This document shows positions 421 to 31,606 of a stretch of 64,000 bases of DNA, in pieces. The stretch spans positions 1 through 64,000 of the forward strand of contig NZ_FNQZ01000009.1 of assembly GCF_900107545.1 (NCBI RefSeq), in the 5' to 3' direction. Each line of letters starts with the position of its first letter. Position 1 is the stretch's first letter. The notes below the pieces were generated by a model. It was not told the DNA's origin. It searched no databases and saw nothing but the letters and a program-made list of their open reading frames with translations. The translations under genes and the position numbers were made by a program. The DNA is from Pseudobutyrivibrio sp. ACV-2. GTDB taxonomy: Bacteria; Bacillota; Clostridia; Lachnospirales; Lachnospiraceae.

Positions 421-464
421 ATTGTACAGTGGAACAAAATAGGCTTCGTAAAATCTACGAAGCC
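421..464 (-). promoter_or_regulatory. Island control element, copy 1 (palindrome plus extended -10)
   Basis: On the minus strand the palindrome (442-464, arms GGCTTCGTA) is followed by TGTACAAT (421-428). It starts 32 bp after the stop codon of the RNase H gene, so it can also act as that operon's terminator. The promoter now points into about 75 bp of non-coding DNA and then the IS66 end, which suggests that the insertion sequence separated it from its former gene. The rest of 346-495 holds nothing else recognisable. Confidence 0.6.
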
Positions 465-495
465 TCAATTCTCTGAATAACTTATTCTGTTTTAA

Positions 496-909
496 CTATA
501 AGCCCACCGCTTCTTTCGCCAAACGATCAGCTTCCTCATTTCCATCTATTCCGGTATGAGCTTTAACATGTTCAAACTCGATTTTAATTACATTTTTAGC
601 AGCTGCAATATATCCACTATAAAACTTTGTAAGAGCCTTATTTGCTTTCCATTCTCCACTGGCCCATTTTTCAATACCTTCATAATCATAGTAGATTTTC
701 AATTCTTCTACGCCAAGCTCAATTGCCTTTTGGATTGCAGCCATGCTTCCAAAGACCTCTCCAGCCACATTTCTACTTTCTGCAAATTCTTTTACGTCCC
801 CATGTCCTTGCAGAACTATTTTTTCACCAGCCACATTTAAGAATCCACCGTAGCCATATACTTTCGTATCTTTGTTAAAAGAACCGTCTACAAATGCAAA
901 ATTTTCCAT
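496..909 (-). CDS. rnhA: Ribonuclease HI
   Basis: 137 aa, the usual length for a stand-alone RNase HI, which cleaves the RNA strand of RNA-DNA hybrids. The four acidic catalytic positions are visible: Asp in F-V-D-G-S-F near residue 8, Glu in A-G-E-V-F-G-S near 51, Asp in Y-Y-D-Y-E near 74, and the final Asp in N-E-E-A-D-R-L-A near 128, preceded by the conserved H-V-K-A-H-T-G. There is no N-terminal hybrid-binding domain. The start is supported by GGAGGTAAAGAG ahead of the ATG. It is the last gene of a leftward operon that appears to begin at 5072. Confidence 0.9.
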   Translation of the reverse strand: MENFAFVDGSFNKDTKVYGYGGFLNVAGEKIVLQGHGDVKEFAESRNVAGEVFGSMAAIQKAIELGVEELKIYYDYEGIEKWASGEWKANKALTKFYSGYIAAAKNVIKIEFEHVKAHTGIDGNEEADRLAKEAVGL

Positions 910-939
910 CTCTTTACCTCCTGCTCAACAATTAACTTT

Positions 940-1932
940 TTACCTTACATCATTCAAAATCCAAATATGCTTAAGCGGTATACGCTGCTGCATTTCAGGA
1001 CTTAACTTGTCGTAGTATTTTAGCACCTCATCAACCACCTCTTTGCTGGTCCATAGGCGAATACTATAAAAATAATCTGCCGGCTTCACTGCTTTATCAA
1101 ATCCATTCCAGGCTACAAATAATCCATATTCCGCATGAAACTTTTCTATAGTCTGTGACAGTTTATCCACTACTTCTTTTTTTACATGAGAATTTTGGGT
1201 TTTAACCTGTACACATATTTTAGGAGATTCAAATCCCATATCACCAGCTGCTGCAAGCAAGTCCTGACCTCCATCCGGTCCCTTAGGTCCATTGTAAACT
1301 GTAAAGCCTTTGGTCTTAAGGATTTCACAGATTAAATCTTCCATATCATAACCTTTGAAATTCTTGTATATATATTTTGATATGGTTGATTTAGCTGCAG
1401 CTTCCCAATCCATTTCATAGTCTTCATCAAATGGCTTCATAGGAGGTCGATTCCAGTCGTGCTCTACCATATATTCGATGCACTCAGTGATATCTTTATT
1501 CTTTATCATACCAACAGAATTTCTAATATTGGTATCATAGATAATTTGATTATCAAATAAATCCTTTGAAATATCTGTTGCGAACCAATCTACCACCCTT
1601 GAATGCTTATAATATTCTGGAGCTACTTCATCAAACTCATAGTCTCCTTCCACTCTTCCAAAATGAAATGTATTTGAAAACTTGCTTGGAAGAATAATCA
1701 AGTCATCTTTTTTTATCGCATTTACGATTGGACAAATCAGAAAATAATAATCCTCCAGCTTTTCCTTTGATAACCATGGAAAGGCCTGCCTGATAATTTT
1801 CTTTATATTAGCTTCAGACTCTCCAGCAAAGCTCTTGTCCAGATTACTCCAGGTCAAATATATCCTGCCATCATCTAAAAACTTCTTCTCATGCTCACCT
1901 TTTCTTCCTGCTCTATAAATCCAAATTGCCAT
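940..1932 (-). CDS. Mrr-like restriction endonuclease with an N-terminal recognition domain
   Basis: 330 aa. Residues about 190-300 match the Mrr_cat type PD-(D/E)XK nuclease: E-D-L-I-C-E-I-L-K-T-K-G-F, then G-P-D-G-G-Q-D, then C-V-Q-V-K, giving the E, D and QxK catalytic positions. Residues 1-150 (Y-L-T-W-S-N, I-I-L-P, F-H-F-G-R-V-E-G-D-Y, H-S-R-V-V-D-W) resemble the PUA/EVE-like modules that read modified bases in type IV restriction enzymes; that part is inference. No partner methylase or NTPase is adjacent, consistent with a modification-dependent or nucleic-acid quality-control enzyme. The start has AGAGGAG upstream. Confidence 0.75.
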   Translation of the reverse strand: MAIWIYRAGRKGEHEKKFLDDGRIYLTWSNLDKSFAGESEANIKKIIRQAFPWLSKEKLEDYYFLICPIVNAIKKDDLIILPSKFSNTFHFGRVEGDYEFDEVAPEYYKHSRVVDWFATDISKDLFDNQIIYDTNIRNSVGMIKNKDITECIEYMVEHDWNRPPMKPFDEDYEMDWEAAAKSTISKYIYKNFKGYDMEDLICEILKTKGFTVYNGPKGPDGGQDLLAAAGDMGFESPKICVQVKTQNSHVKKEVVDKLSQTIEKFHAEYGLFVAWNGFDKAVKPADYFYSIRLWTSKEVVDEVLKYYDKLSPEMQQRIPLKHIWILNDVR

Positions 1933-1977
1933 AACACTCCTCTAAGTAATAAATCCTTTTACAGAAACTTCGACTTC

Positions 1978-4382: not shown

Positions 4383-5072
4383 TCAAATATCATATATTCC
4401 TATAAGGCTTGTATCGGTATAACAATTAAGTGCATCAAACCATTTAACCTTGTCCCACTGTCCTTCCGGTCTGCGGAGAATATGACAAGACAGATACTCG
4501 TAATTTCTACGAAGTCTCTGTAAAGCGTCATATGGCGTTTTACCTTTAGCATAACATTTGTCGATAGGTGGTTCGCCTAAATACCAATGAAACTCACCTG
4601 TTTTACGTAACTTATTGACAGCATCAATGAGTGACTCATTACAAGATGTAGCAAAATCTGGGTACATAGCTAAGTAGCTTGATAGATTAAATACATCCAT
4701 ATGATATATAGCCATACATCTGTACTCATCATTGTATTTTTCAAAATATAATTGAAGCTTTCTTGAATATATAGGCCCACCAACTTCATCTAGCTTTCTT
4801 TCAATAAAGCTATTGATAAACTCTATTTCATACTCTGGTTCCTGATATACCTCAAATTCCTTCGAAAACTGGTCCATATCTGCCACAAGGTTTTCGTTGT
4901 TTTCCAGATTTGAAAAAATCACACATTCTTCAGGTAAAGTCTCATAGCCCTTTGCCTTACCCTTGATTCTATATAAGTGCGCCAAAGGGCGCTGTTCTAT
5001 TTCATCACGCGTCATTGAACTACGTGCAATGTGTTCTACAACCATTGGTGCATATATTTTCTTTTTATCCAT
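4383..5072 (-). CDS. Hypothetical 229-residue protein
   Basis: First gene of the leftward operon that runs to the RNase HI gene. The ATG follows GGAGGTCGAAAATT, and an island control element (5094-5138) sits directly upstream, giving a 5' leader of only about 15 nt. The protein is soluble, with a Y-C-M-A-I-Y-H-M-D segment near residue 115, a W-Y-L-G-E-P-P loop near 163 and an Arg-rich helix near 185. I do not recognise the family. Confidence 0.7.
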   Translation of the reverse strand: MDKKKIYAPMVVEHIARSSMTRDEIEQRPLAHLYRIKGKAKGYETLPEECVIFSNLENNENLVADMDQFSKEFEVYQEPEYEIEFINSFIERKLDEVGGPIYSRKLQLYFEKYNDEYRCMAIYHMDVFNLSSYLAMYPDFATSCNESLIDAVNKLRKTGEFHWYLGEPPIDKCYAKGKTPYDALQRLRRNYEYLSCHILRRPEGQWDKVKWFDALNCYTDTSLIGIYDI

Positions 5073-5093: not shown

Positions 5094-5138
5094 ATTCTAT
5101 CAGCAAGCTGTGTTTTTTTCGTAAATTTTACTAAGTCC
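5094..5138 (-). promoter_or_regulatory. Island control element, copy 2 (degenerate, no U-tract)
   Basis: On the minus strand TTAGTAAAATTTACGAA (5118-5138 including flanks) is followed by A-rich sequence and TGATAGAAT (5094-5102). The distance from palindrome centre to -10 is 27 bp, as in the other copies. The run after the palindrome is A, not T, so this copy cannot be a rho-independent terminator. That supports a protein-binding or promoter role for the palindrome itself. Confidence 0.55.
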
Positions 5139-6040: not shown

Positions 6041-6086
6041 ATTATATCAGGGTACAAAAAAGGACCTCGTAAAATTTACGAAGTCC
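6041..6086 (-). promoter_or_regulatory. Island control element, copy 3
   Basis: The palindrome at 6062-6086 has 12-bp arms with one mismatch; on the minus strand a T6 run and TGATATAAT (6041-6049) follow, centre to -10 28 bp. It begins 40 bp after the stop of the P-loop gene at 6126, so it can terminate that operon and start the next one, which holds the 18-codon remnant and the small membrane protein. Confidence 0.65.
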
Positions 6087-6125: not shown

Positions 6126-6593
6126 TCAATAATATCTTTTGGCATACAATGGATAAAATTCATTATAGATTTGCTGAGGATAATTAAATCTGCCAGAATT
6201 TCTAATCCCATATACCTCATTAATGCTATATGGCAGATTCTTAAGATAATCACGAGTAATTAAAACATAATAATTTGAACTGCCTTTGATTACAGATGCA
6301 AATTCTTTTGTCTTTATAAAATCAAAATCTTCATCGATAAAAACAATAGAATCCTTTGTAGCTGACAGTGATTCCTGCCAGGATACCAAACCATCTGCAT
6401 ATACTAGACACGGTACATCCGAGTCAACTCTAATACCGGTTCGCTCTGAAAACCTAGCATACTGACTTAGAAGTTCAATCAGTGTAGTTTTACCAGTAGC
6501 ACTATCACCACGAATCACAGTAATATTTCGCTTAACATCAAACTCGTATTTAATTTTTTTAGTCTCAACAATAATATGATGCTTCCCCTTCAT
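6126..6593 (-). CDS. Small P-loop ATPase, partner of DUF4869 (module B, copy 1)
   Basis: 155 aa. Walker A is G-D-S-A-T-G-K-T-T near residues 29-37 and Walker B is S-I-V-F-I-D-E-D near 82-89. The sequence is close to the first 155 residues of the 321-residue protein at 16622 (shared K-G-R/K-Y/H-H-I-I-V, R-N-I-T, F-A-S-A/V-I-K-G-S-S-N-Y-Y-V) but ends where that protein continues with a second domain. Start and upstream stop share one base (TAATG), as in copy 2, so the pair is translationally coupled. Either a naturally short form or a C-terminally truncated one. Biological role unknown. Confidence 0.75.
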   Translation of the reverse strand: MKGKHHIIVETKKIKYEFDVKRNITVIRGDSATGKTTLIELLSQYARFSERTGIRVDSDVPCLVYADGLVSWQESLSATKDSIVFIDEDFDFIKTKEFASVIKGSSNYYVLITRDYLKNLPYSINEVYGIRNSGRFNYPQQIYNEFYPLYAKRYY

Positions 6594-7042
6594 TACAGTT
6601 CCTCGTCTATAACACTAAGTGCAGCTAATGTATACTCTCGCCTATTTGTATATATCGTTTTATTATTCTCCAGTGAGATCTCAAATGCATCATTTTCTGG
6701 AAATCTCATTGCGTAACGCAAAGTTACTTTAATATCAGCCACTTTTCCTATTTCCAAAAGCCACTTTGCACAATTATCCCCACAGCTGGTAGCATCAAAA
6801 ATAAGGTCAGGATTTTTATAAATTGAAATCAAAGTCTTTACACCACCAGATAACCTCTCTGGAGGAATCGCGCCAAGGACACTACTTTCAAAAACTTCTC
6901 CTTCTTTATATTCAGTTTTATCTACATCCACGACCATAGCCTGAACAAATGGATCCTCAAACCATGACTGCTCATAGTTGTTCAAAAACCATGCCGGGCC
7001 ATATAAGGCTTCATCTAAAGTTCCGTAATATACCTTAAGCAT
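6593..7042 (-). CDS. DUF4869-type protein (module B, copy 1)
   Basis: 149 aa. Landmarks shared with 16185-16622: Y-Y/F-G at residue 5, W-F/L-x-D-P-F-V near 27, the S-V-L-G-A-I-P-P-E-R-L-S-G-G-V-K-T-L block near 52-70, and F-D-A-T-S-C-G-D-N-C-A-K-W near 82. I recall this family as DUF4869; function unknown. The conserved C-G-D-N-C-A-K-W and S-G-G-V-K motifs would be candidates for a binding or active site. Always followed by the P-loop gene with a TAATG overlap. Confidence 0.75.
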   Translation of the reverse strand: MLKVYYGTLDEALYGPAWFLNNYEQSWFEDPFVQAMVVDVDKTEYKEGEVFESSVLGAIPPERLSGGVKTLISIYKNPDLIFDATSCGDNCAKWLLEIGKVADIKVTLRYAMRFPENDAFEISLENNKTIYTNRREYTLAALSVIDEEL

Positions 7043-11605: not shown

Positions 11606-11950
11606 GTGAGCATTGGGCAAAAAATAAAATACCATCGCAAACTCAAAGGCTTGAAGCAAAAGGATTTGGCTGCAATTCTTGGTATCAGTGACAAGACTAT
11701 TTCTTCGTGGGAAATAGATCGCACAGAACCAAGCATGGATATGATTAACAAGATGTGTGAGTTATTCAAAATCGACGCTTCTGTTTTAATCGCTCCTCCA
11801 ACCACCACCCCAAGCCTCAGCCAGGATGAACTAGATATAATAAATAAATACAGAAGTTTGAACGAATACGGCAAAAATGATTTGTTCCGCAGAGCCGACG
11901 AGCTAATCAAACTTGATTATACTAATGATGATTACGAACCTGAGCCATGA
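11606..11950 (+). CDS. XRE-family transcriptional regulator
   Basis: 114 aa. A classic Cro/CI helix-turn-helix fills residues 4-60 (K-I-K-Y-H-R-K-L-K-G-L-K-Q-K-D-L-A, I-S-D-K-T-I-S-S-W-E), followed by a short helical tail. The start is GTG at 11606, seven bases after a perfect AAGGAGG; there is no ATG alternative. It is one of only three intact genes in the island read rightwards, and the only obvious stand-alone DNA-binding regulator there, so it is a candidate for binding the repeated palindromes. That link is untested. Confidence 0.9.
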   Translation: MSIGQKIKYHRKLKGLKQKDLAAILGISDKTISSWEIDRTEPSMDMINKMCELFKIDASVLIAPPTTTPSLSQDELDIINKYRSLNEYGKNDLFRRADELIKLDYTNDDYEPEP

Positions 11951-11971: not shown

Positions 11972-12589
11972 TTACACCATAGTTCTTTTCATCAAATCCC
12001 TGAGGCAATCTGAATCTATCACCTTTGAAGCAAGTCCAAATTCAATGGCTTCCTCAGCATTAAAGTAACTATCGGACATGGTCACCTTTGAGACCTGCTT
12101 CACAGTCTTACCAGTTCGTTCTGCGATGATAGATACCAGCCTTTCATTAACCTGTTCAAGCTGTCTCAATTCCTGCTCAATTTCAAAAGGCTTCATTCCG
12201 CCCATCTCGCGATGCCCCCAGCTACAGTCATGAATCATTACCTTACTGCTAGGAAGCATTAGACGCTTATCCTTATCGCAAGCCAGGAGAATAATACTTC
12301 CCATACTTGCAGCTATCCCTGTCACCACTGCAGTGACTGGGCTTTTCATTAATCTAATTGTGTCGTAAACAGCAAGTCCTGAGCCAACATCCCCACCTGG
12401 AGAATTGATGAACAATGTAATTGGCTGTGTGTTGTCCTCTGCTTCCAAATAAAGGAGCTGCTTGATCAAATTATTGCAAGAGGCATCATTCACTTCCCCC
12501 ACAAGAAAGATTTTCCTGTTCTTTAAGAACATATCATCAATTGGTACTGGCTGTGGACCTCTAACTGAATCTAAAATAATATTTGGCAT
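11972..12589 (-). CDS. clpP: ClpP-family serine protease
   Basis: 205 aa from the ATG at 12587-12589 (AAGGGGATACAAA upstream). An earlier in-frame start at 12628 overlaps the -10 box and would be untranscribed. Catalytic Ser lies in G-I-A-A-S-M-G-S and His in V-M-I-H-D, in the usual ClpP order, and the N-terminal substrate region (L-F-I-N-S-P-G-G) is intact. As an island copy with its own control element it is probably an accessory ClpP paralogue; no Clp ATPase is adjacent. A possible MecA-like adaptor is encoded 2.7 kb upstream. Confidence 0.85.
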   Translation of the reverse strand: MPNIILDSVRGPQPVPIDDMFLKNRKIFLVGEVNDASCNNLIKQLLYLEAEDNTQPITLFINSPGGDVGSGLAVYDTIRLMKSPVTAVVTGIAASMGSIILLACDKDKRLMLPSSKVMIHDCSWGHREMGGMKPFEIEQELRQLEQVNERLVSIIAERTGKTVKQVSKVTMSDSYFNAEEAIEFGLASKVIDSDCLRDLMKRTMV

Positions 12590-12626: not shown

Positions 12627-12672
12627 ATTGTATCAGGGCATAAAAATGGACTTCGTAATATTTACGAAGTCC
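12627..12672 (-). promoter_or_regulatory. Island control element, copy 4
   Basis: The palindrome at 12648-12672 starts 8 bp after the stop of the 12680 gene. The extended -10 TGATACAAT (12627-12635) follows at 28 bp from the centre and serves the ClpP-like gene, with a short leader of about 30 nt. Confidence 0.65.
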
Positions 12673-12679: not shown

Positions 12680-13360
12680 CTAATTCCTTTCCATTGCTTG
12701 CTGCACTATAGTCGCACCCCTGTTTTCAATGAATTTTACATCTTTCTCTGATGTGATTAAGATTCCTTTTTCCTCAAAGAACTTAATTGCCTTATCAATT
12801 TCATCTTTATTATTCTTATAATTATACTCACCACCACAAGCATTTTTAAAGGCATGTTGAATATCATGAAGGTCGTTTCCTAGTACGTAGGTGTATTTCA
12901 GTGAGTATCCAGTTTCCGGCTTGCCGCTAAAATAAATATAGAAATAGCCATCGGTTCCATCTCCGGCAAATAGATCATATTTCAATTCGCTAGGTTTTTC
13001 TTCATATCTCTTTTTATTTCTTCCCCAATTTTTGATAACATATTCTACTGAATCATACCCCAATTCAATGATTCCCTGGTCCATAAAAACATCAAATGCT
13101 GTTTTAATCTCTGGCAGACTCGAAGACCTTCCTCTTCTATAGTCTGATAAATCCAAGCCTGAATGATCAAATCTTTCCATAAAGTATCTCATGCCATAAT
13201 AAGCATGTTGTACTATTCCACTTATTCCAGAATATTTATAATGCTTAACTATTATTCCTCTTGTTGTTTCTCGTACAGTTTCACCGTCTTCCTTCCAAAA
13301 TTCCCATTTGAAGTCCCACTCATAATCATATAAAAAAACTACTGTTCCCCAGTCACTCAT
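12680..13360 (-). CDS. Hypothetical 226-residue protein
   Basis: Start supported by CGGAGGTGAAAGA. The protein is soluble, rich in aromatic residues (Y-D-Y-E-W-D-F-K-W-E-F-W-K at residues 11-23), with a central strand-rich part (D-G-Y-F-Y-I-Y-F-S-G) and a helical C-terminus. No family recognised. Second gene of the operon controlled by the leader at 13632-13844. Confidence 0.65.
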   Translation of the reverse strand: MSDWGTVVFLYDYEWDFKWEFWKEDGETVRETTRGIIVKHYKYSGISGIVQHAYYGMRYFMERFDHSGLDLSDYRRGRSSSLPEIKTAFDVFMDQGIIELGYDSVEYVIKNWGRNKKRYEEKPSELKYDLFAGDGTDGYFYIYFSGKPETGYSLKYTYVLGNDLHDIQHAFKNACGGEYNYKNNKDEIDKAIKFFEEKGILITSEKDVKFIENRGATIVQQAMERN

Positions 13361-13631: not shown

Positions 13632-13844
13632 AAACAGTCTTCCTTTCATCATTAAACCATGTATTAACATCAATTACCAATTTCCTTTAGGCTGGAACAT
13701 CCCTGTAAGTATTTCAAGGACCTTGATTTTCCATGTAAATCAGGAAACCTTATAAGTTGAAGCCGCTTACAGTCACTGTCGGTGAACTATCCCCCACCCA
13801 CCGACCGGGGAGCAAATATGAAGTTGTAACTCAAGCATGTTCAC
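13632..13844 (-). ncRNA. Conserved structured 5' leader, copy 1
   Basis: About 200 nt between the -10 box and the 84-residue gene. It is nearly identical to 15855-16047, which precedes an unrelated gene. On the minus strand, hairpin 1 is GTCGGTG / CACCGAC around a G-rich loop. Then a long hairpin is closed by CTGTAAG / CTTACAG, with inner helices TTCAA / TTGAA and AAGG / CCTT. In the inner helix the two copies differ in ways that largely keep pairing. Candidate riboswitch-like or protein-binding leader. I do not recognise a known class. Confidence 0.5.
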
Positions 13845-13890
13845 ATTATATCAGGGTACAAAAAAGGACCTCGTAAAATTTACGAAGTCC
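13845..13890 (-). promoter_or_regulatory. Island control element, copy 5
   Basis: The palindrome at 13866-13890 lies 15 bp after the stop of the phosphoesterase gene and is followed on the minus strand by T6 and TGATATAAT (13845-13853). It drives the leader-84-residue-226-residue operon. Confidence 0.7.
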
Positions 13891-13905: not shown

Positions 13906-14592
13906 TCATCTTTTAATCAGCAATCTTCGACCATCTCGCGACAAACTATAATATTCCTTTGTGTCTGTATCAAACATAAGCACAGGTATCACACCGCTAT
14001 ACTGCACTGATCCGTCAATATAAAAATGTGACTCGCCATCATAATAGATATCGTGAAAATCCGGATTACCTGAAATTTTATGTGTACCCGTATGACCTGC
14101 AATAACATCTGTCACAAATTTACCTGTGTTTGGCGGATACATATTTGTGAACCAATCATCGGGAGTCCCTAGTAAATAATCATCAACTGTTCGCCCCTCA
14201 TCTATCATTTCTTCGCCATCTCCCTCATTTAATCCGGCATGAACAAATATCTGATCTTTTGTTCTGTAAAAAAGTCGCAGTTGCTTCATCCATTTCTTAT
14301 ACTTTCTCAAATCTGCATTGGGAATTTTTCTCACTACAGTATCATGCAAAAATAATGATTCACCTTCTAGTACCAGTTCTTCATGATTACCTCTTAGCAC
14401 CACGACTCTATCCTTACCATATTTTTCTTCAAGAGCCATAACCTTATCAATCACAGCGACACTATCCCTGCCATGAACATAGTCACCTAACAGAATCAGC
14501 TTGTTGTCTGGATTGTTTAAATCAATTAATGTTAAAGCCTCATCAAGGGCTTTAACATTTCCATGGATATCACTAATCGCATAATACTTCAT
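13906..14592 (-). CDS. PPP-family metallophosphoesterase (ApaH/PrpE-like), intact
   Basis: 228 aa from the ATG at 14590-14592. All PPP-type motifs are visible: S-D-I-H-G-N near residue 7, L-L-G-D-Y-V-H-G-R-D-S near 37, L-R-G-N-H-E-E near 70, and A-G-H-T-G-T-H near 165. Members dephosphorylate proteins or cleave diadenosine polyphosphates; the substrate is not evident. Last gene of the three-gene operon starting at the leader 15855-16047; an island control element follows its stop. Confidence 0.85.
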   Translation of the reverse strand: MKYYAISDIHGNVKALDEALTLIDLNNPDNKLILLGDYVHGRDSVAVIDKVMALEEKYGKDRVVVLRGNHEELVLEGESLFLHDTVVRKIPNADLRKYKKWMKQLRLFYRTKDQIFVHAGLNEGDGEEMIDEGRTVDDYLLGTPDDWFTNMYPPNTGKFVTDVIAGHTGTHKISGNPDFHDIYYDGESHFYIDGSVQYSGVIPVLMFDTDTKEYYSLSRDGRRLLIKR

Positions 14593-15267: not shown

Positions 15268-15834
15268 CTACATCGCAGCCAGCATAAACAAATCCTTGCA
15301 AATCATTTCCCCATGCTCTGCCCAATACTCCACAGGGAAGTTAAGTGCGTCGCGCAAATGAATGTCATTGTAATCACAGATGTGAACTAATGAGGCTTCC
15401 AACGGTCTATAAGCTACGGTATCAGAAGGAAGTTCGAAACGTATTGCATATTTTTTATGGGCTGGATCCTTATACACCGCAAGATCTTGTTCATCCAAGA
15501 TGTGTGAAACTGGCTTCATTTGCTTTGCAGTAGTTATCACAGCATCAAGTGTATCACAAACAATATAGATATCGTTCGATGCTGTGCGCCACTTTACGGA
15601 GATTACCACGTTATTATCAGGCGACTGGGTTGTGTTTGTGATTGATGCTTCCGAATCAGCTGGAATATATTTCTGTTCCTTCAATTCATTCATTGTGAAA
15701 TCAACTAAACCTTGAAGTGTTTTATCAATTGTTTCCTGGTCTACAACCTCTTCTTCAAGAAGTTTTACTTCAACCTGGTAAGTTCTCATTCCTGTCTGTC
15801 TGATTGCCATTTCTCTAGGTGTTATATTTTCCAT
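15268..15834 (-). CDS. Hypothetical protein, possibly MecA-like adaptor
   Basis: 188 aa from the ATG 15832-15834 (GAGGT site); a longer frame would begin inside the conserved leader. The layout resembles the C-terminal domain of MecA-type adaptors: a strand pair (N-V-V-I-S-V-K-W) then an A-V-I-T-T-A-K-Q helix, Y-A-I-R-F-E-L and an A-S-L-V-H-I-C-D-Y end. MecA proteins deliver substrates to Clp proteases, and a ClpP-like gene lies nearby, but similarity is faint and the family call is tentative. First gene after the leader. Confidence 0.4.
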   Translation of the reverse strand: MENITPREMAIRQTGMRTYQVEVKLLEEEVVDQETIDKTLQGLVDFTMNELKEQKYIPADSEASITNTTQSPDNNVVISVKWRTASNDIYIVCDTLDAVITTAKQMKPVSHILDEQDLAVYKDPAHKKYAIRFELPSDTVAYRPLEASLVHICDYNDIHLRDALNFPVEYWAEHGEMICKDLFMLAAM

Positions 15835-16184: not shown

Positions 16185-16622
16185 ATGCTTAGCATTTATT
16201 TTGGAGATTTAAAGGATTCAATATACAATACTTCTTCCTATTTCAAATTCAATTATGAAAAGGAATGGCTTACTGATCCATTTGTGTCTGAAATGATAAA
16301 AGATGTTGATGACTCAGTCGTTTTAGGAACGGGCGCCATTGATAGCCCTGTCATGGGAGTGATCGCCCCCGTGAGCCTTTCCGGCGGTGTAAAGACATTA
16401 ATACTTATTGATAAAGTGACAGATAAAGTGTTTAATGCATCTAACTGCGGAGATAACTGTGCAAAATGGATTTTGAAAATTGCCGAAAAAAAGGATATCA
16501 CTATCAACCTTAGGCACATTATGAATTTTGGAAAAGAAACATTTTCTGCAAAGATCCTTAATGATGATGTCATCGTATCGTCCATGGATGAACTCATCCC
16601 TATTGCTGGGAGGTACGTATAA
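16185..16622 (+). CDS. DUF4869-type protein (module B, copy 2)
   Basis: 145 aa, paralogue of 6593-7042 with the same order of motifs: D-P-F-V near residue 27, S-P-V-M-G-V-I, L-S-G-G-V-K-T-L near 64, and F-N-A-S-N-C-G-D-N-C-A-K-W near 80. The ribosome binding site is GGAG eight bases ahead of the ATG. A TATAAT at 16147-16152 is a likely -10. Divergent from the leader-controlled operon. Its stop overlaps the start of the ATPase gene (TAATG). Confidence 0.8.
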   Translation: MLSIYFGDLKDSIYNTSSYFKFNYEKEWLTDPFVSEMIKDVDDSVVLGTGAIDSPVMGVIAPVSLSGGVKTLILIDKVTDKVFNASNCGDNCAKWILKIAEKKDITINLRHIMNFGKETFSAKILNDDVIVSSMDELIPIAGRYV

Positions 16623-17587
16623 TGAAAGGCAGATATCACATCATCGTTCAAAGTTCACACCTAAAGTATGAATTTGATATCATCCGCAATATAACTATAA
16701 TAAAAGGCGATAGCGCCACTGGTAAAACAACCCTTGCCGAGCTTATTCGAGAATACACTTTAAATGGCACTGACACTGGTATCACAATCAGCTGCGATGT
16801 ACCTTGCAGGTTGTTAGAGGGCAACACTTGGGCTGAGCAACTGTCACTTATCAATGACAGTATTGTTTTCATAGATGAAGGGAACAGCTTTGTTTCTTCA
16901 AATGAATTTGCTTCTGCCATAAAAGGCTCTAGCAATTATTATGTAATCATCACTCGAGAGAGTCTGCATTCTCTACCTTATAGTGTCACAGAAATCTATG
17001 GAATTCATTCATCTGGAAAATATAACTCGCTTGAGCCAGTTTACCATGAACTTTATAAGATATATAGCAGTGAGAAAGCCACTTCATCCAAGCCTGACAC
17101 AGTAATTGTTGAAGATAGTAATTCCGGTTATGAGTTCTTTGATACTCTATTCAAAAATACAAAATGCATATCAGCAAAAGGACGTGACAATATTTTTTCA
17201 CTACTAACTGATGGCAACATAACTGGTAATATTTTAGTCATTGCTGATGGGGCAGCATTTGGTGCACCAATGTCCAACATTCACAGCTTCGTTGAAAACA
17301 AAGATAATATTAGCTTGTATTTACCAGAGTCTTTTGAATGGCTAATACTAGATTCCGTCTTACTAGATAATTCCGATGTCAGAAAAATCCTTTCTGCACC
17401 AGAAGATCATATAGATTCTGAAAACTATTTTAGTTGGGAACGGTACTTTACTCATTTACTTATAGAAAAGACCGAGGATTCTTATCTGAAATATACTAAA
17501 GCTAAGTTGAATCCAGCTTACTTACATGAGAAAAGTTTAAATGCAATTTCTCAAAAGTTACCTAAATTATTATTAGACCTAATTTAA
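16622..17587 (+). CDS. P-loop ATPase partner of DUF4869, long form (module B, copy 2)
   Basis: 321 aa. Walker A G-D-S-A-T-G-K-T-T near residues 29-37; Walker B S-I-V-F-I-D-E-G near 79-86; F-A-S-A-I-K-G-S-S-N-Y-Y-V after it. Residues 1-155 match the short protein at 6126; residues 160-321 are an additional domain with V-I-V-E-D near 162 and a helical end, absent from copy 1. The two forms together define the family. No membrane segments. Role unknown; the obligate pairing with DUF4869 suggests a two-protein device. Confidence 0.75.
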   Translation: MKGRYHIIVQSSHLKYEFDIIRNITIIKGDSATGKTTLAELIREYTLNGTDTGITISCDVPCRLLEGNTWAEQLSLINDSIVFIDEGNSFVSSNEFASAIKGSSNYYVIITRESLHSLPYSVTEIYGIHSSGKYNSLEPVYHELYKIYSSEKATSSKPDTVIVEDSNSGYEFFDTLFKNTKCISAKGRDNIFSLLTDGNITGNILVIADGAAFGAPMSNIHSFVENKDNISLYLPESFEWLILDSVLLDNSDVRKILSAPEDHIDSENYFSWERYFTHLLIEKTEDSYLKYTKAKLNPAYLHEKSLNAISQKLPKLLLDLI

Positions 17588-17646: not shown

Positions 17647-18135
17647 CTAATCAAACCAATCATCAATATCACATGGCATTTCTCTGACTTGGAATCGAAT
17701 TTCTTCTAAGCGGGCGAACTCTGTTAAACAGCTAAATAATTCGTCGTTATAACCTTCTGTGCCGTACTTACAAGCATATCCGATTGCTTTTACGCTTTCT
17801 AAACTGAGTGGATAAAGTTCATCAGTTCTAGCGTCTCTCAAACTAGCGAAGTCTTTGAGATTCACTGGTATTTCAATACCCTTTTCTGATAAATACTCAA
17901 GGTATTCGTATAAGTAGTTCAATGCACTACCAAGGTTTCCACCGAAACCTCTGCTGTGTACTACATCTTTACGAATGTCTTCAGGAATATCAGATACTTT
18001 ACAAGGGCCAAGCTTGAGATTCTTAATCTCGTCAAACTTAGTGATGTCGAAATAGTCTGGTCTTTCGTCCTGTTCAACAAGCTCTCGAGCTGTTTTGCCA
18101 GTTCTTTCTTCGATTAACATTTTCCTTTCTTCCAT
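17647..18135 (-). CDS. Hypothetical 162-residue protein
   Basis: Start at the ATG 18133-18135; a TTG six bases upstream is the alternative and sits closer to the AAAGG site. The protein is soluble and mainly helical, with an R-G-F-G-G-N-L-G-S-A-L-N-Y-L-Y-E-Y-L segment near residue 63 and an acidic end (D-I-D-D-W-F-D). Single-gene operon behind control element copy 7. No family recognised. Confidence 0.6.
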   Translation of the reverse strand: MEERKMLIEERTGKTARELVEQDERPDYFDITKFDEIKNLKLGPCKVSDIPEDIRKDVVHSRGFGGNLGSALNYLYEYLEYLSEKGIEIPVNLKDFASLRDARTDELYPLSLESVKAIGYACKYGTEGYNDELFSCLTEFARLEEIRFQVREMPCDIDDWFD

Positions 18136-18182: not shown

Positions 18183-18229
18183 ATTATACAGGGGTATAAA
18201 AAGGTACCTCGTAGAATTTACGAAGCCCC
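18183..18229 (-). promoter_or_regulatory. Island control element, copy 7
   Basis: The palindrome at about 18203-18229 contains CTTCGTAAATTCTACGAG on the minus strand. It is followed by a T5 run and TGTATAAT (18183-18190), 28 bp from the centre. It serves the 17647 gene. The 100 bp between it and the dual-OB gene contain nothing else I recognise. Confidence 0.6.
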
Positions 18230-18328: not shown

Positions 18329-19198
18329 TTAACTCAGATAATTTTTCTCGCATTCCTTACATTGTCCCATGCCGTCAGCTACCATATCATCCCATAATGC
18401 ATAGATAACTGAGTCCTTATATTTTTCAAGATACTTACAATCACTGAATGCGTGGAAGAAACCATAGGTATTATTTTCAATCGTATATACGGTTTCAAAT
18501 ATCTTTGCAATTATCTTATAATGCCTTTCTCGATATTCTTCACCGACACTCATAATCAGATATGTCTCACCAAATTTCAGCCCCTGGAAATCCGTTTTAG
18601 CAGCATCATAATCTGGATCTGTGACAGACAATCCATCGTATTGATGTCCCTTATATTTAAATCGTGCTCTATAATGAGCCTGATACCCGTCTTCATCGTA
18701 CTTTTCCTTAGGATACAGTTCTAAATCCTCCACCTTAACCATAACTAGGGATTTGTTGCACTCGATTGCATCTTCGATACTTAGACTAGTAGTGTCGTCT
18801 TTGTATATATACTCATCGTCACTTACAATTCCCAAATGCATAACTTCATCAATGGAAGCTTTTCGTACTAATTTGAACTTATCACGTACAATATAATTTT
18901 CAGGTTGTATGCTTAATAAATTCTCTGGATACTGTTCTGTGAATCCATTCCCCCATCCATGGGCATTACACTCTATCCTCTTTTGAGAATCTATCTTTTC
19001 TGCATCCACTTCCACCACATCAAAAGGCTCACAAAGTGTACCATCCTCATAAATTGCCTCAGCATCAGCAATTTTAAAATGATAATGTGGCCCCACAAGT
19101 CTAATCCACTGATTATTTTGCAAGTTAATGCCTGCTACACAATATCCTCCATCGTCTGCTTTGTGTTTATCTGATCTTGTAAGAATTAAAACTTCCAC
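18329..19198 (-). CDS. Dual-OB-type protein ending the DUF1848-helicase operon
   Basis: 289 aa. The N-terminal part (E-V-L-I-L-T-R-S-D-K, Y-C-V-A-G-I, W-I-R-L-V-G) and the later H-Y-R-A-R-F-K-Y-K-G and Y-L-I-M-S-V-G-E strands fit what I know as the dual OB-containing domain, a putative nucleic-acid-binding beta-barrel pair found in accessory operons. A C-terminal C-K-E-C motif may bind metal. Located 13 bp after the preceding DUF488 gene, last in a six-gene operon. Family call moderate; function unknown. Confidence 0.55.
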   Translation of the reverse strand: MEVLILTRSDKHKADDGGYCVAGINLQNNQWIRLVGPHYHFKIADAEAIYEDGTLCEPFDVVEVDAEKIDSQKRIECNAHGWGNGFTEQYPENLLSIQPENYIVRDKFKLVRKASIDEVMHLGIVSDDEYIYKDDTTSLSIEDAIECNKSLVMVKVEDLELYPKEKYDEDGYQAHYRARFKYKGHQYDGLSVTDPDYDAAKTDFQGLKFGETYLIMSVGEEYRERHYKIIAKIFETVYTIENNTYGFFHAFSDCKYLEKYKDSVIYALWDDMVADGMGQCKECEKNYLS

Positions 19199-20716: not shown

Positions 20717-23700
20717 CTATTCTCTCCTAAAAGGTAAGATCTGGAAGACTGTATGATCTACATCCTCTCCAGTCGCCATGTTGAGGTTCTTTCTAGGGAT
20801 TGATCTTATTTTCCGACACTTTTTCTGGACACATTTTTCACAAATCGTGGTAATCGATTTGCCCTCAAGAAGCTGGTCATCTGTGATATTGCCGTCACAA
20901 TTATTAACCAAAATACCGCCCTTGGACATATAATTCTGTACCTCTACGGGTAGGTTAAAATCGGCATATTTATTTTCATAATCCACTATGCAGTCATCCT
21001 TTGATTGAAATACCATTTTATCATCGTCAATCAAATCAAAGTATTCATTGCAGACCCAACCGTCTATCACATCCTGACCAAAAGCTTCAGGGGCATACCC
21101 CTTCTCTCTCATGGTAGCAATTATCTTTTCTACCAAGGCATTATCTTCATCAAAGGTTTTACTTCCTCTGTAGGAAACGCAAATAATGATATAGTCCCTC
21201 ACTAGTGTTGCTTCTGATACTCTCTCGCAGAACTGATCAATAATTGAGGTACCAGTCGAATCATCATCCAATCCTTCGCTAAGCATTTTGGGAAACATAA
21301 TTACATTTGCTAAAAAAGTTTGCATTTCATTCCAAAAATCCACCATTCCTGAATCAAGATGACCTGTGGTTTTCAGGTATTCGTTGTGCTCGGCTACTTC
21401 TTCTGGAAATAGCATACCGACATCTGCCCACTTAACAATGTCTATTCCCCTGTAGTATAGTTTCTTTTCTAAACTGTAATCCTCTGTATCTAATAATTGA
21501 CGATGTGCATATAGTAGCGACAGTGCATCCACCATAGACCCACAACCAAAGGTATAAACAACTGCTGCATCATCTTTAGCATCCTTTAATTCCTTAGACA
21601 GCAATCGCAAAACCAGATCATATATCCAGTAATATTCCAGAGCATAATATTTGGCATATTTCATCATGTAAAAAGCAACCTGGAATTCATCACTGTAATC
21701 TGGTATACCTTCTCCAAAATTAACGCGCTGTATCCTATTTTCAAAGGCTTCGCGGGTAAGGTGTTCTTCTAAGAAATCTTTAGCTTCAAGTAATTTATTG
21801 TCGAGATATTCCATATTCATAATTTCATTAACCCCCAATACTGGTGCCTTCTCATCAAAAACAGCTTCAATAATTTGATCCAATTCATCCGAAGATGTAC
21901 CATCAGTCGAAAGTCTTAAATACCTTCTTTCGGCAAATTTCTTGTTCATTAATGAAACTATTCGGTCTTTTAATTCGTCCTTTTTCGCTTGCTCTTCATC
22001 CGAACGATGATATGCTCCATCCACTTCAATTATCGCATATACGTATCCAGCTTTTGCAATGACAAAATCAAAGCGGGCTCCATTTTCCACATATTCCTTA
22101 ATCTCTTCATCGTCTAATGGAATATTTTTGAATTTTCTAAGTTCCACCTCTCTATGTATCTCAAAGTCAGCTAATAAGCCATCACATTTTTTCAATTCCT
22201 CATAAAGGCATTCTTCAGGAGCGAAGTCCCTTTTACCTGAATGTCTTTTTTCATCCTCACCAGCTCTAAATTTCTGGCGATAATAAGGTATCTTATCAAA
22301 AACTGAAGAAATAGATGTGCGTATGAATCCATAATCTGCGCCTGTATCACGGAGCTTTTCCTGGGCATAAACATACCCCAGAAAATCTCTGAGATAGCAT
22401 TCCTGTTTCCATTTATTTTTCACAAGGTATCCAAGCTCTTTTTCCTGCATTTCTTCTGGGAGCCATACTGCAGAGGTTATAACGCATATTTCTTTCTTTG
22501 CCCTGGATATAGCCACATTAATCAATGTTTTCTTTTGAGACCATGGCTTATTTCCAGCATCCTGTACAGGCATTATGTACACTCTGTCATAGCCTCTTCC
22601 CTGGGCCTTGTGAATAGTTAACTGAGGAATCTTATTTATAAAACCAGCCTCTTCATCCTCTGGGTTTTTCCCCTGGCTGTCATATTCAATATCATTATCT
22701 ATGATTACACCTTCAAGTTCTCCAGCAGCAACCACTTCTTGAATCCTTTCCTGAAGAAGCTCCAAATGATACTTAAAAGGTGAAAGCACACAAATACTAT
22801 AGTCAGGCTCGTCTATTAATTTATTGTAAATATCTGGAAGTTCTTCTCTGACAAAGATTTCAATCTGTCTTTTGTTATAATTGTTGTTTTTAGGCTTATC
22901 CTCTTCATCCTTAGCTGGAGCATCTATACATTCCCAATAATCCCCTTCATACCAGCGGATTCTTATAGGGAGTTTTTTTCCTGCATCGCTTGTTTTAACT
23001 ATAAGCTGATTCTTATACACTTTTTCATTGCAAAATCCAATAATAGCAGGATGACACCTGAAATGCTCATTTAAAAGAATAGCGCTGCACCTATCACCAA
23101 AACTCTGACCACAGGCCTTCATGAAGCTATTGTCCTCTTTATCAATAAAAAACTCATAGCTTCCCTTCAACTGCTTTTCACTATCTATGCCACCTTCAAT
23201 TTTTTTGTGAATAGGAGGCAATTGCTCATTATCTCCCAAAAGAATAAGGTGCTTAGCAGAGGACATGGCTATCAATCCAATATAGCATGGCACCTGTGAG
23301 CACTCATCTACAATGACATAATCATATTCATCCATATCAGCTACACATTTGCGCAGTGAATGAATCGTACTGAATATAATAGGATAGCTATCAAGCAAAA
23401 GTTTGGGAAATATATATTTATTGTCAGCCTTACAGCTGCGAAGCTTCTTATGTAAATCTGGATTTACCTCCTTGAGACTTTTCTTAAATTCTTTTCTTTT
23501 ATCCTGAGGTCCCAACCTTGCATAGCATTTTGCAAGACTGGCTTCTGTGCTGACAGCATCCTTTGCATTTTCAATAGCCTCACTATTTGCTGAAATGACT
23601 GCTATTTTTGCATCGGGATAAAAATCTCTAATGCAAAGCAAAATGTTCTTGATGGTCTCCGTCTTACCGGTGCCTGGAGGCCCCTGAATAATTGTAATAT

Positions 23701-24007
23701 CATTAAGGAGGGCATTTGAAATAGCATCAACTTGCGCAGGGTACGGAGGAATAGGCATGCCATCACACAGTGCCATAACTTTAGCATTCATAGCTTCAAG
23801 CTCACTCTTAGAAGCACGCTTAATGGCAGCTTTAGCCTCATCATCCTGCAGAAATGCCTTGGTAAGAGTATTCAAATTATCTGCTAAAACACCTAGAGCT
23901 TTCTCCTCATAGAACCATGAGACAGAATATCCGTATGGTATACCATCCTCACCAATACCTATTTTTTCTGCTAAATCCTTGTAGTATTGCCAGATTCTCT
24001 CATTCAT
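20717..24007 (-). CDS. Superfamily 1 helicase with nuclease and methyltransferase-like regions
   Basis: 1096 aa. Residues 60-530 are a DNA2/Upf1-type SF1 helicase: Walker A G-P-P-G-T-G-K-T near 108, D-E-C-S-Q near 235, G-D-N-E-Q-L-P near 258, H-F-R-C-H-P near 315, and H-K-A-Q-G-R-G-Y-D with V-A-I-S-R-A-K near 470-505. Near residue 650 comes F-D-F-V-I-A, then I-E-V-D-G-A-Y-H-R and Q-A-K-K-D, the pattern of DUF559/Vsr-like endonucleases. Residues about 800-870 (V-Y-T-F-G-C-G-S-M-V-D-A-L, then Y-R-G-I-D-I-V-K-W) resemble the SAM-binding start of a Rossmann methyltransferase. A four-Cys cluster lies near the C-terminus. Methyltransferase part is inference. Confidence 0.8.
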   Translation of the reverse strand: MNERIWQYYKDLAEKIGIGEDGIPYGYSVSWFYEEKALGVLADNLNTLTKAFLQDDEAKAAIKRASKSELEAMNAKVMALCDGMPIPPYPAQVDAISNALLNDITIIQGPPGTGKTETIKNILLCIRDFYPDAKIAVISANSEAIENAKDAVSTEASLAKCYARLGPQDKRKEFKKSLKEVNPDLHKKLRSCKADNKYIFPKLLLDSYPIIFSTIHSLRKCVADMDEYDYVIVDECSQVPCYIGLIAMSSAKHLILLGDNEQLPPIHKKIEGGIDSEKQLKGSYEFFIDKEDNSFMKACGQSFGDRCSAILLNEHFRCHPAIIGFCNEKVYKNQLIVKTSDAGKKLPIRIRWYEGDYWECIDAPAKDEEDKPKNNNYNKRQIEIFVREELPDIYNKLIDEPDYSICVLSPFKYHLELLQERIQEVVAAGELEGVIIDNDIEYDSQGKNPEDEEAGFINKIPQLTIHKAQGRGYDRVYIMPVQDAGNKPWSQKKTLINVAISRAKKEICVITSAVWLPEEMQEKELGYLVKNKWKQECYLRDFLGYVYAQEKLRDTGADYGFIRTSISSVFDKIPYYRQKFRAGEDEKRHSGKRDFAPEECLYEELKKCDGLLADFEIHREVELRKFKNIPLDDEEIKEYVENGARFDFVIAKAGYVYAIIEVDGAYHRSDEEQAKKDELKDRIVSLMNKKFAERRYLRLSTDGTSSDELDQIIEAVFDEKAPVLGVNEIMNMEYLDNKLLEAKDFLEEHLTREAFENRIQRVNFGEGIPDYSDEFQVAFYMMKYAKYYALEYYWIYDLVLRLLSKELKDAKDDAAVVYTFGCGSMVDALSLLYAHRQLLDTEDYSLEKKLYYRGIDIVKWADVGMLFPEEVAEHNEYLKTTGHLDSGMVDFWNEMQTFLANVIMFPKMLSEGLDDDSTGTSIIDQFCERVSEATLVRDYIIICVSYRGSKTFDEDNALVEKIIATMREKGYAPEAFGQDVIDGWVCNEYFDLIDDDKMVFQSKDDCIVDYENKYADFNLPVEVQNYMSKGGILVNNCDGNITDDQLLEGKSITTICEKCVQKKCRKIRSIPRKNLNMATGEDVDHTVFQILPFRRE

Positions 24008-26907: not shown

Positions 26908-26992
26908 ACCAGCGTCACAGTCACTGTCGGTGAACTATCCCCCACCCACCGACCGGGGAGCAAATATGAAGTTGTTTCTTAAGCATGTGTAC
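26908..26992 (-). ncRNA. Truncated copy of the conserved leader
   Basis: Contains the GTCGGTG / CACCGAC hairpin and the sequence up to the -10 box, but the long second hairpin has been deleted by the junction with the NYN fragment. It resembles leader copy 1 in detail (GCAAATATGAAGTTGT). Confidence 0.5.
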
Positions 26993-27036
26993 ATTATATC
27001 AGGGCACAAAAAGGGCCTCGTAGAATTTACGAAGCC
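26993..27036 (-). promoter_or_regulatory. Island control element, copy 8
   Basis: The palindrome (27014-27036, arms GGCTTCGTA and TACGAGGCC on the minus strand) is followed by T5 and TGATATAAT (26993-27001), 27 bp from the centre. It faces the truncated leader, the NYN fragment and the 26128 gene. Confidence 0.6.
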
Positions 27037-27128
27037 TCGATATTATTTGCATAGACCTCCAAAACAATATTAATCTCCCACAAAATACGATATAATTATT
27101 CCGATAGTAAAATTATGGAGATTATATT

Positions 27129-27296: not shown

Positions 27297-28064
27297 TTAA
27301 AACTCGGACATAATCCTGTCTCTATCATCATCCGAAATACTCCAATAGTCATCTTCATCAGGAAAGTAATCGGCAAAATATTTCATCAATTCCTCTGGAC
27401 ATCCTTCCGGCATATTACCATTTAGGTTTCTAATTTCAGATAGAACATCATCCTCATTTATCACAAGCCATTTATCAAACCACAAGGCCGCCTCTCTAAC
27501 ATTTTTGATATCAGATAGATAATTGTCATTGCCTATTCTATGTAAGCAAACACCGTAGTCATCGGTATTTTCCCAATTTGAAATAATATCTATACCACAA
27601 TGGTATGTAGCTGGATATAAGAATTCATTTTTTAAATAATTGTCTCGCCCGATTATAAAAAGACCAATGCCGCTTTTTGCATCTACCTTGATTGGAATAA
27701 GCACCTTATCACTTGCAGGAGATTTATAAAGCTTGTCATATAATGTTTGATATTTTTCTGTAGAAATCTCATTAACACCTGTCTCCTGTATTTTTCTATC
27801 ATGCATTTGGTACCAACCGTTAATAAGATTAATTGCTGTATTATTAGATCTTGTTTGCAAATCATATTTGAATGTCTTAATACGCTTATCTATAGCCTTT
27901 TTTAATTCTTCACTGGTTATATTTTCCAACTTCCTTTTTTGTATATTGGAATCAAATTCAAGGAAATACTTATATATGTACGAATCGTTTTCCTTTAAAG
28001 CATATTCCTGCATCATGTCATCTATTGCTACATCACTCATCTTCTTATTCTGGTAAATCGGCAT
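27297..28064 (-). CDS. Hypothetical protein, second gene of paired family A (copy 2)
   Basis: 255 aa from the ATG at 28062-28064. It shares with 2554-3225 the block L-I-P-I-K-V-D, G-I-G-L-F-I-I-G-R-D, Y-P-A-T-Y-H-C-G-I-D-I-I-S-N-W-E and a late P-E-G-C-P-E-E. It has an additional acidic C-terminus (Y-F-P-D-E-D-D-Y-W-S-I-S-D-D-D). It overlaps the preceding gene by about 20 bp, as in copy 1. Function unknown. Confidence 0.75.
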   Translation of the reverse strand: MPIYQNKKMSDVAIDDMMQEYALKENDSYIYKYFLEFDSNIQKRKLENITSEELKKAIDKRIKTFKYDLQTRSNNTAINLINGWYQMHDRKIQETGVNEISTEKYQTLYDKLYKSPASDKVLIPIKVDAKSGIGLFIIGRDNYLKNEFLYPATYHCGIDIISNWENTDDYGVCLHRIGNDNYLSDIKNVREAALWFDKWLVINEDDVLSEIRNLNGNMPEGCPEELMKYFADYFPDEDDYWSISDDDRDRIMSEF

Positions 28065-30201: not shown

Positions 30202-30210
30202 TACCACCTT

Positions 30211-31527
30211 CTATGCGCTTAACTGATCATCATTTTCCTCCTCCAGCTCAAAGCTGTAAGAAGGAATTTTGTTTACTAGTGACACTGGTTTTCCTGCTTC
30301 GAGGATGAATTCCTTTTGTCTGTCAGTACACAGGACTGCCTCAGGAGTCTTTAAGGCTCTGGTCCCAATAAACTGAGCTGACTGCATATCATTGCTGCCC
30401 AGGTATACTATATGGTCACAATTATTGATAACTGTCATTGCCTGAGAGTGCGAATACAGTGTTTCCAACTGAGTAAACGACTGGATACAAAGCGTAAGCC
30501 AGATATCGCGGCTTCTTACAACAGAAATCAGCTTGTCAAAATCCGGAATAATTGCTGATGATGCAAAGTCATCCATAATAATTCTGACTGGCACATTAAG
30601 CTGCCCATCATCCTGAGCATCAGCCTCAGCCATAAGACCTTGCAGCGCCTGAGCATAAAATAAATTCACAACGTCATCCAGGCTGTGATCACTATCTGAG
30701 ATATTTAAGAATAAAACTGTTTTTTCTTTTCCTAAGGATGAAAAGTCCAGTCTTCTTTCGTCAACATCAAAATCATCCATCGCAAATGGATTTTCCTCCC
30801 ACTCTTCCTTAGTTCTGAGGGAATTATAGTAAGGTTCGAAAATGACTCTATATTCCTTATAAGCAAAAGATTTTATCGCATTATTCACAATTGCAAAAAT
30901 GCTGGCTATGGTTTTATCTGCCGTGCGCATCCCCTGGATCTGTATATAACGGCTGGCAGCTAACGTGTTATAATGTTCTGAAATCCATGGCTCAAAATAT
31001 TTTCTGTCATTTACCATTAACTTTCCTATGATGCTTTCAACTATATTCATATTATGGTTCTCTTCAGGCAAAGCCATCAGGGTAAAAGCCACAGCAAATT
31101 CCAGTACTGTTCTGGCGCTCATTGGCCAAAAGGCTTCATGGTGGTATCCTAAAGGAACGAGACAAGCAGCGAGTTTTGCTATATCCTGCTCTCTATAATT
31201 TCCCCGCTCATCCCGACGAATGTAATCAAGAGGATTATAGGTAACATCACTATTTTCAGGATTTACAAAATCAAGTGTTTTTATGTTGTAGCCTTTGCAG
31301 TTCAGTTCCTCGCTGAACATCTTTGCCAGACGCCCTTTAGTGTCTGCTACAATAAGGCTTGAATCCTTCAATGACTTAAGCTGCGCATACACAATAGAAC
31401 CAGTCTTTGATGAGCCGGAACTTCCAACAATTAAATCATTGTTATTCAGATGGGTTTCTCTAGTGTCGTTACTCACCTTAAAACCGTCACCTAAGTATCT
31501 GTAGCTGTATCTTTCTTTTCTATTCAT
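30211..31527 (-). CDS. VirD4/TraG-like coupling ATPase, soluble form
   Basis: 438 aa. Walker A G-S-S-G-S-S-K-T near residue 36, Walker B V-R-I-I-M-D-D-F near 303, and the family's T-L-C-I-Q-S-F-T-Q-L and V-Y-L-G-S-N-D blocks further on. VirD4-type proteins are hexameric motors that feed DNA or protein into type IV secretion systems. Membrane segments are absent from the N-terminus and no other secretion or relaxase gene is in the window, so this is an orphan coupling protein, a remnant or a repurposed motor. Start has GGAAGGGG upstream. First gene inside the island border. Confidence 0.8.
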   Translation of the reverse strand: MNRKERYSYRYLGDGFKVSNDTRETHLNNNDLIVGSSGSSKTGSIVYAQLKSLKDSSLIVADTKGRLAKMFSEELNCKGYNIKTLDFVNPENSDVTYNPLDYIRRDERGNYREQDIAKLAACLVPLGYHHEAFWPMSARTVLEFAVAFTLMALPEENHNMNIVESIIGKLMVNDRKYFEPWISEHYNTLAASRYIQIQGMRTADKTIASIFAIVNNAIKSFAYKEYRVIFEPYYNSLRTKEEWEENPFAMDDFDVDERRLDFSSLGKEKTVLFLNISDSDHSLDDVVNLFYAQALQGLMAEADAQDDGQLNVPVRIIMDDFASSAIIPDFDKLISVVRSRDIWLTLCIQSFTQLETLYSHSQAMTVINNCDHIVYLGSNDMQSAQFIGTRALKTPEAVLCTDRQKEFILEAGKPVSLVNKIPSYSFELEEENDDQLSA

Positions 31528-31560
31528 GAATATCCCCTTCCTTTTTTTGTTGATGGAGAT

Positions 31561-31606
31561 ATTATGCCAGAAATAAAAAAAGGACTTCGTAAAATCTACG
31601 AAGTCC
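31561..31606 (-). promoter_or_regulatory. Island control element, copy 9 (right border)
   Basis: The palindrome at 31582-31606 lies 21 bp after the stop of the chromosomal Na/Pi cotransporter gene, with a T7 run and TGGCATAAT (31561-31569) following on the minus strand at 28 bp. It is the rightmost copy and marks the edge of the island. Confidence 0.65.

Follow-up and report, generated by a model that had tools for sequence, protein, structure and literature searches.

A 64,000-nucleotide stretch of DNA from Pseudobutyrivibrio sp. ACV-2 (contig C14:1-64000 of a 3.66 Mb genome), called the window here and taken at its full length, carries eight copies of a palindromic element, all on the minus strand. 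Each copy would be a joint of about 55 bp, measured from the stem to the expected start, between consecutive transcription units that run in the same direction. In RNA, the palindrome and the T-run behind it are predicted to act as an intrinsic terminator for the upstream unit; the same DNA would form the upstream half of a sigma-A promoter that has no -35, with an extended -10 placed 14 to 15 bp past the palindrome of 25 bp and, next to it, a conserved start region. Base changes in the stem mostly keep pairing, and the core, TCGTA-N5-TACGA, is fixed; lying near -40, this core may be the sequence-specific site for one dimeric regulator of the island promoters. We hold with moderate confidence to this explanation as a whole, namely, a fused terminator-promoter joint between shuffled operons with the core as the site of one dimeric regulator. 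Taken separately, the terminator-plus-promoter joint is well supported by sequence, the core is likely to serve as an operator, and the case for termination, initiation, and binding is built from position, island restriction, covariation, core invariance, and promoter spacing.

An earlier interpretation of the window from its letters alone (the sequence-only reading) had listed nine copies of a palindrome plus extended -10, all on the minus strand. Eight of these are real, and the strand holds for all eight composites; the ninth, at 5094, is a coding look-alike, and one true copy, located outside the window at the end of contig C23 (C23:67582-67623), had been missed. The full composite of core, T-run, and -10 occurs at these eight window places and on C23, and its exact pattern is found nowhere else in this genome. 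The palindrome 17-mer with at most three mismatches gives 19 strand matches at 10 window places, compared with a mean of 0.37 and a maximum of 5 in shuffled sequence (0 of 100 shuffles reach 19). The sequence at 5094, also present in G015 and G020 (second core arm altered in G020), falls in what in relatives is coding sequence at the 3' end of gene family F13; it has a noncomplementary outer arm and lacks the T-run. A similar match at 4497 was rejected as a joint because it lies inside gene 4383-5072.

The hairpin and predicted promoter halves of the joint

The hairpin with its T-run, its placement just past upstream stop codons, and its covarying arms did not figure in the sequence-only reading. 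At all 20 sites known from the genus, a run of at least four Ts starts 0 to 1 base past the 25-mer, and an independent terminator scan rated all eight window copies as terminator-like. A same-strand gene stop lies 6 to 100 nt upstream at 16 of the 20 sites and 259 nt upstream at one, with genes taken from our own open reading frame (ORF) caller; the exceptions are joint 5, G015:C68, and joint 68 of G028, which is at a contig end. Hairpin energies range from -11.8 to -20.1 kcal/mol at 19 sites, and the weakest hairpin (-8.3 kcal/mol) belongs to joint 5, the nearest upstream gene of which is on the opposite strand, although this is a single case. The joints thus resemble intrinsic terminators in the stem of 9 to 14 pairs, the T-run, the position just past stop codons, and the compensatory changes; they differ in having an AT-rich inner stem with an invariant sequence that is fused directly to the next promoter.

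The arms covary in a strand-dependent manner. Among the 20 aligned sites (18 distinct 33-mers), standard pairs fill 96.7% of the transcript-strand stem cells versus 88.9% of those on the opposite strand, a difference that is due to wobble pairs. The transcript-strand covariation score is 0.256 against a shuffled mean of 0.153, and none of 500 shuffles reaches it; four stem pairs carry changes on both sides, a number equaled by 14 of 500 shuffles. Over ten stem pairs at the 20 sites, G-U combinations outnumber A-C combinations by 16 to 2, and by 14 to 2 in the 15 distinct 25-mers. A split of 14:2 or more extreme has a two-sided p of about 0.004 if cells are independent, which they are not. When the loop-closing pair is included, the counts become 20 to 6 and, in distinct 25-mers, 16 to 6 (two-sided p of about 0.05, if independent). 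An intrinsic terminator accounts for the palindrome no less well than an operator does.

The spacing claims of the sequence-only reading were borne out. At every one of the 20 sites, 27 or 28 bp separate the palindrome center from the first base of the -10, which itself begins 14 or 15 bp past the 25-mer. As had also been claimed, a normal -35 is absent: the best match to TTGACA at a spacing of 16 to 18 is 2/6 in all 18 distinct composites. The TGn said usually to precede the -10 is present at six of the eight window sites and at 13 of 20 overall, and TG abuts the -10 at the remaining seven; an AT lies 7 to 8 bases past the -10 at 20 of 20 sites and is preceded by C at 18 (all by eye). In class II activator-dependent promoters of the CRP type, the activator site is centered near -41.5. 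With an assumed start site, the joints would place the palindrome center near -40, so that on spacing the dyad sits where a class II site would be expected near -41. They share with such promoters a palindrome over the -35 region, a poor -35, and a good -10; unlike those promoters, the palindrome of the joint doubles as a putative terminator. The claim that the copies head operons holds for several, which head genes, but the copy at 6041 is followed by a truncated F11 frame and the one at 421 runs to the contig end.

The motif search that had been proposed as a check found the composite restricted to islands. In relaxed form, it has 20 sites in five of 29 Pseudobutyrivibrio genomes (9, 5, 3, 2, and 1 sites), or four of the 21 good genomes; the other 24 genomes, several of them incomplete, have none, and the reversed composite pattern has no match in the 29. 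A stricter pattern searched against 84,980 named species retrieved five Pseudobutyrivibrio stretches and one Planococcus sequence, which reads as a plain terminator and was rejected as a joint. In a search of 397 genomes of the family (our own and one of the same genus included), only our own genome matched. Allowing one mismatch added one single-strand match in G060, from another family of the order, and a matrix scan of that locus gave nothing above threshold. Among viral contigs, the palindrome pattern matched once, without T-run and promoter, and joint 4 with its leader had no match in the plasmids and phages searched. Literature searches retrieved nothing on these joints.

The invariant core and competing explanations

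The inner core is identical at 20 of 20 sites. Its five pairs are invariant; of the five outer positions, four show three to four standard pair types, and the fifth shows two. In G020 (GTCC/GGAC) and G023 (GAGC/GCTC), the outer arms are wholly different, with the inner core unchanged. Because the site patterns themselves required the core, terminators were scanned again without this requirement, using a home-made scan that misses joint 5 (broken arm) and scores the -10 of joint 1 below its limit. In four islands with 15 joints, this core-blind scan detected 32 terminators, of which 13 were followed by a -10, and all 13 had the core. About 127 kb of chromosome yielded 64 terminators, two followed by a -10 and none of these with the core, and a further 800 kb of this genome yielded 291, of which 12 were followed by a -10, again with no core. 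The window island has a -10 after 6 of 16 terminators, versus 12 of 291 in the 800 kb of chromosome (Fisher p 9.5e-5). The island restriction and the invariant core fit a dedicated regulator. For the island-wide regulon under one regulator that the sequence-only reading proposed, the island-restricted, -35-less architecture with its invariant core is supported; a palindrome that is an operator only is not supported.

The role of a putative regulator could be activation or repression, or there may be no regulator at all; we lean slightly to activation, because the -35 is missing. Half-sites were sought with the pattern TCGTARNNNYTACGA, which matches at 28 places off the joints in the 29 genomes (0 to 4 each), versus 96 for the reversed pattern (0 to 7 each), and so gives no sign of a wider regulon. 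At the 14 of these 28 places for which flanks were viewed, T-run plus -10 is absent by eye, and one off-joint half-site that recurs in several genomes sits in conserved, coding-like DNA (by eye). In this genome, the pattern occurs at 11 places, namely, the nine composites, 4498 inside a gene, and one on C34; relatives have the sequence of this last place too, in apparently coding DNA (by eye). The XRE-type protein at 11606, which had been put forward as the regulator, does not hold up as a shared one: among the matches listed, it is intact only in G000 of the five joint-bearing genomes and has no intact ortholog in the other four. Its match in G028 (77% complete) is a degraded fragment, 82% identical over the last 40 residues and with two stops, and other matches in joint-bearing genomes are distant XRE proteins of about 23 to 39% identity, again among those listed.

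Several points weigh against the favored explanation, in which one joint combines terminator, promoter, and regulator site. No shared regulator gene was found in the search just described. One position contributes half of the 16 G-U cells, and, counted as distinct kinds per position, there are five G-U, one A-C, and four other mismatches. Shuffles are also outdone on the opposite strand (covariation 0.142 versus 0.074, 0 of 500), as expected of any dyad, so that the argument for RNA comes from the difference between strands only. The nearest upstream gene of joint 5 is on the other strand, and no intact same-strand gene comes directly after the joints at 421, 6041, and in G023. The sites share descent and recombination and hence are not independent, and the invariance of the core may be due in part to a recent common origin. 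Also, an extended -10 could function without any regulator.

The last two points lead to a plain stop-start joint without a dedicated regulator, copied by duplication and recombination, with the core kept only as the copies are recent. A promoter with an extended -10 can do without a -35 or an activator, the joints freely exchange flanks, and the 12 chromosomal terminators with a -10 next to them indicate that such joints arise without the core. Nevertheless, the arms in G020 and G023 differ fully with the core the same, while the neighboring F0 genes are 68 to 89% identical in DNA between copies, and we regard this explanation as plausible but doubtful. In the activator version of the sequence-only reading, the palindrome is a class II operator, and the hairpin and T-run are incidental. 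The center near -40, the missing -35, the symmetric invariant core, and the lack of any sign of sites off the islands would all suit it; however, a DNA dyad should tolerate G-U-type and A-C-type combinations equally, which does not agree with counts of 16 to 2 (20 to 6 with the loop-closing pair), and incidental features are hard to reconcile with a T-run at 20 of 20 sites and a stop codon just upstream at 16. We consider that version decidedly unlikely.

A repressor that silences the island, either Fur/Zur-like or an XRE protein bound over the -35 region, would also account for where the site lies. The TCGTA half-site resembles that of the Bacillus Zur box. Zur-type boxes, as characterized in one source, have a 7-1-7 form and frequently overlap the -35 (PMC6103462), and the joints share this symmetry and overlap; unlike Zur boxes, the joint sites are seen only in islands. 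The half-sites of this genome outside the nine composites are the one within a gene at 4498 and the coding-looking one on C34, so that no host-wide regulon is seen, and the XRE candidate lacks an intact ortholog in the other joint genomes among the matches listed; repression seems unlikely. A host Zur regulon in particular has no support, with the half-sites of this genome seen only in the island and on C34, although degenerate boxes could escape the pattern. No zinc genes were noticed in the islands, in which no search aimed at zinc genes was made.

An integron-like reading, in which the palindrome is a site-specific recombination joint of mobile cassettes, draws on the flanks. Within about 200 bp, 28 of 190 site pairs share a flank (score above 35; shuffled maximum 27.5), and 26 of the 28 do so on one side, 6 upstream only and 20 downstream only, with 2 sharing both sides. 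Such mostly one-sided sharing implies that joints sit at module seams. The 28 pairs, which fall into a few clusters, are not independent of one another; joint 68 of G028, with only 67 bp upstream, takes part in 5 of the 20; and both-side sharing rises to five pairs when the cut-off is the shuffled maximum, since the second side scores between 27.5 and 35 in three of the 26. Moreover, the same gene neighbor is kept in 2 of 18 cases with a joint versus 12 of 34 without (p 0.10), and on the other side in 2 of 15 versus 12 of 28 (p 0.09), neither of which is significant. Homology between joint 1751 of G028 and joint 3 continues 14 bp past the palindrome into the neighboring gene end, which means that no single base marks the break. 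Of 15 tyrosine integrase (PF00589) matches in the genome, none is on C14 or C23, although unassembled sequence may lie between the contigs, and none of the 38 window island ORFs scanned against Pfam was named as a recombinase. With no integrase in the island, we think an integron-like system very unlikely; homologous recombination between repeated joints would be enough.

A further possibility concerns polymerase itself. In vitro single-molecule work with E. coli described RNA polymerase that, after termination, diffuses on DNA and is recycled to a promoter, a process that, as stated in that 2020 report, had not been observed in vivo yet (PMC6978380). The joints likewise have a terminator and then a downstream promoter in the same direction; they differ from the system described there in their fixed natural spacing of 14 to 15 bp and in being known here from sequence (PMC6978380). 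In such a relay, the polymerase that ends one operon at the hairpin would pass to the -10 located 14 to 15 bp on, setting off the operons one after another. The promoter, lacking a -35, would be weak alone, and the polymerase would be held or gated by the core, either directly or through a protein bound to it. The relay is a long shot. The joints provide a natural test bed for the question of whether a terminator just upstream of a promoter feeds it polymerase. Accessory islands gain and lose operons, and each newcomer needs both starting and insulation; if the favored explanation is true, reusing one stop-start joint with a shared operator would bring a module in already insulated and under island control.

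Islands, modules, and neighboring genes

Ordinary chromosome begins at 31628, with an Na/Pi transporter gene and a GTPase taken for HflX. Contig C23 has a dnaE-like gene (by eye), then island gene families and one joint. In G023, the dnaE-like and Na/Pi genes are about 2.3 to 2.4 kb apart with one joint between them, an adjacency by which C23 and C14 would be two parts of one island inserted there, and the C23 joint is probably part of the same island. The start of a transposase-like gene (by eye) opens the contig at window positions 1-300 and could be the reason why the assembly breaks between C23 and C14. The features of the window are listed in Table 1.

Table 1. Joints and associated features in the window
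Feature	Position	Strand	Description
Joint 1	421-465	-	Hairpin 441-465, T-run, -10 TACAAT at 421; upstream gene stop at 496; downstream side reaches contig end
Joint 2	6041-6086	-	Hairpin 6062-6086, T-run, extended -10 TATAAT; truncated F11 reading frame next (by eye)
Joint 3	12627-12672	-	Hairpin 12648-12672, 7 nt past stop of 12680-13360; predicted promoter of ClpP-like gene 11972-12589
Joint 4	13845-13890	-	Hairpin 13866-13890, 15 nt past stop of 13906-14592; then conserved leader, F11, F10
Joint 5	16048-16093	-	Weakest hairpin, two outermost arm bases unpaired; heads F0 15268-15834; nearest upstream gene 16185-16622 on opposite strand
Joint 6	18183-18228	-	Hairpin 18204-18228, 100 nt past stop of 18329-19198; heads F1 17647-18135
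Joint 7	26993-27037	-	Hairpin 27013-27037, 259 nt past stop of 27297-28064; then partial conserved leader, small gene remnant
Joint 8, island edge	31561-31606	-	Hairpin 31582-31606, 21 nt past stop of chromosomal Na/Pi transporter gene; heads VirD4-like gene
Rejected copy	5094-5138	-	Coding look-alike, 3' end of F13 remnant
XRE-type protein	11606-11950	+	Earlier candidate regulator
VirD4-like ATPase	30211-31527	-	CD1115-family-like, 224.7 bits versus cut-off of 250; first gene downstream of joint 8
Conserved leader after joint 4	13680-13835	-	About 156 nt; related 15882-16038; partial 26917-26983

The joints appear to be the means by which some islands connect operons. In G007 (86% complete), the genes for ClpP, the VirD4-like protein, F13, and F8 stand in a row with no joint, which implies that these genes as such do not need joints; G020 has a similar gene set, read from the gap beside a RecQ-like gene (by eye), and then a joint. 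In G007, this row of ClpP-like, VirD4-like ATPase, F13, and F8 genes is next to a divergent RecQ-like gene (RecQ by eye; L149 11637-15163), and distant pairs of ClpP and VirD4-like genes are present at G016:C1 and G028:C21. This row may constitute a system not yet described. Relatives of the VirD4-like protein, all below 60% identity, are found in 1360 plasmid records. Upstream of the ClpP gene of the row are three hairpins, two in G020 (C1 ~27520-27830) and one in G007 (L149 11380-11660), that have in common the inner sequence GCTTGCGC, varying outer arms, and a T-run nearby, possibly a second case of a fixed core with covarying arms.

The leader that follows joint 4 also occurs behind several other joints, with further copies in G028:C120 (123-277 and 930-1084) and G015:C67 (4016-4137), and it precedes different genes. 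Four full copies are about 92% identical, one consists of the first 67 nt only, and that of G015 is in two pieces. As a structured RNA, the leader was rejected, with no Rfam match near the gathering score and a fold no better than those of shuffles (z -0.08).

One of three F0 members scanned matches Pfam MecA (E 0.0017, 18.4 bits versus a cut-off of 22.5). The F0 structural model is poor (mean pLDDT 54.7), and a fold search with it gave no match at E 0.001 or better. A role as MecA-like adaptor is possible for F0; together with the ClpP-like protein, this would hint at targeted proteolysis. Two copies of a pair made up of a DUF4869 protein and a P-loop ATPase-like protein are at 6126-7042 (-) and 16185-17587 (+); the longer of the paired ATPases weakly matches LmuB profiles (E 2e-5), and the pair is possibly a defense or toxin-antitoxin system. 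An Mrr-type nuclease at 940-1932 matches the candidate defense family PDC-S02 (E 3e-106), and a large helicase at 20717-24007 has Mko-like matches (E 7e-34). On the plus strand, at 34762-34859, a thiamine pyrophosphate (TPP) riboswitch scores above the Rfam gathering score.

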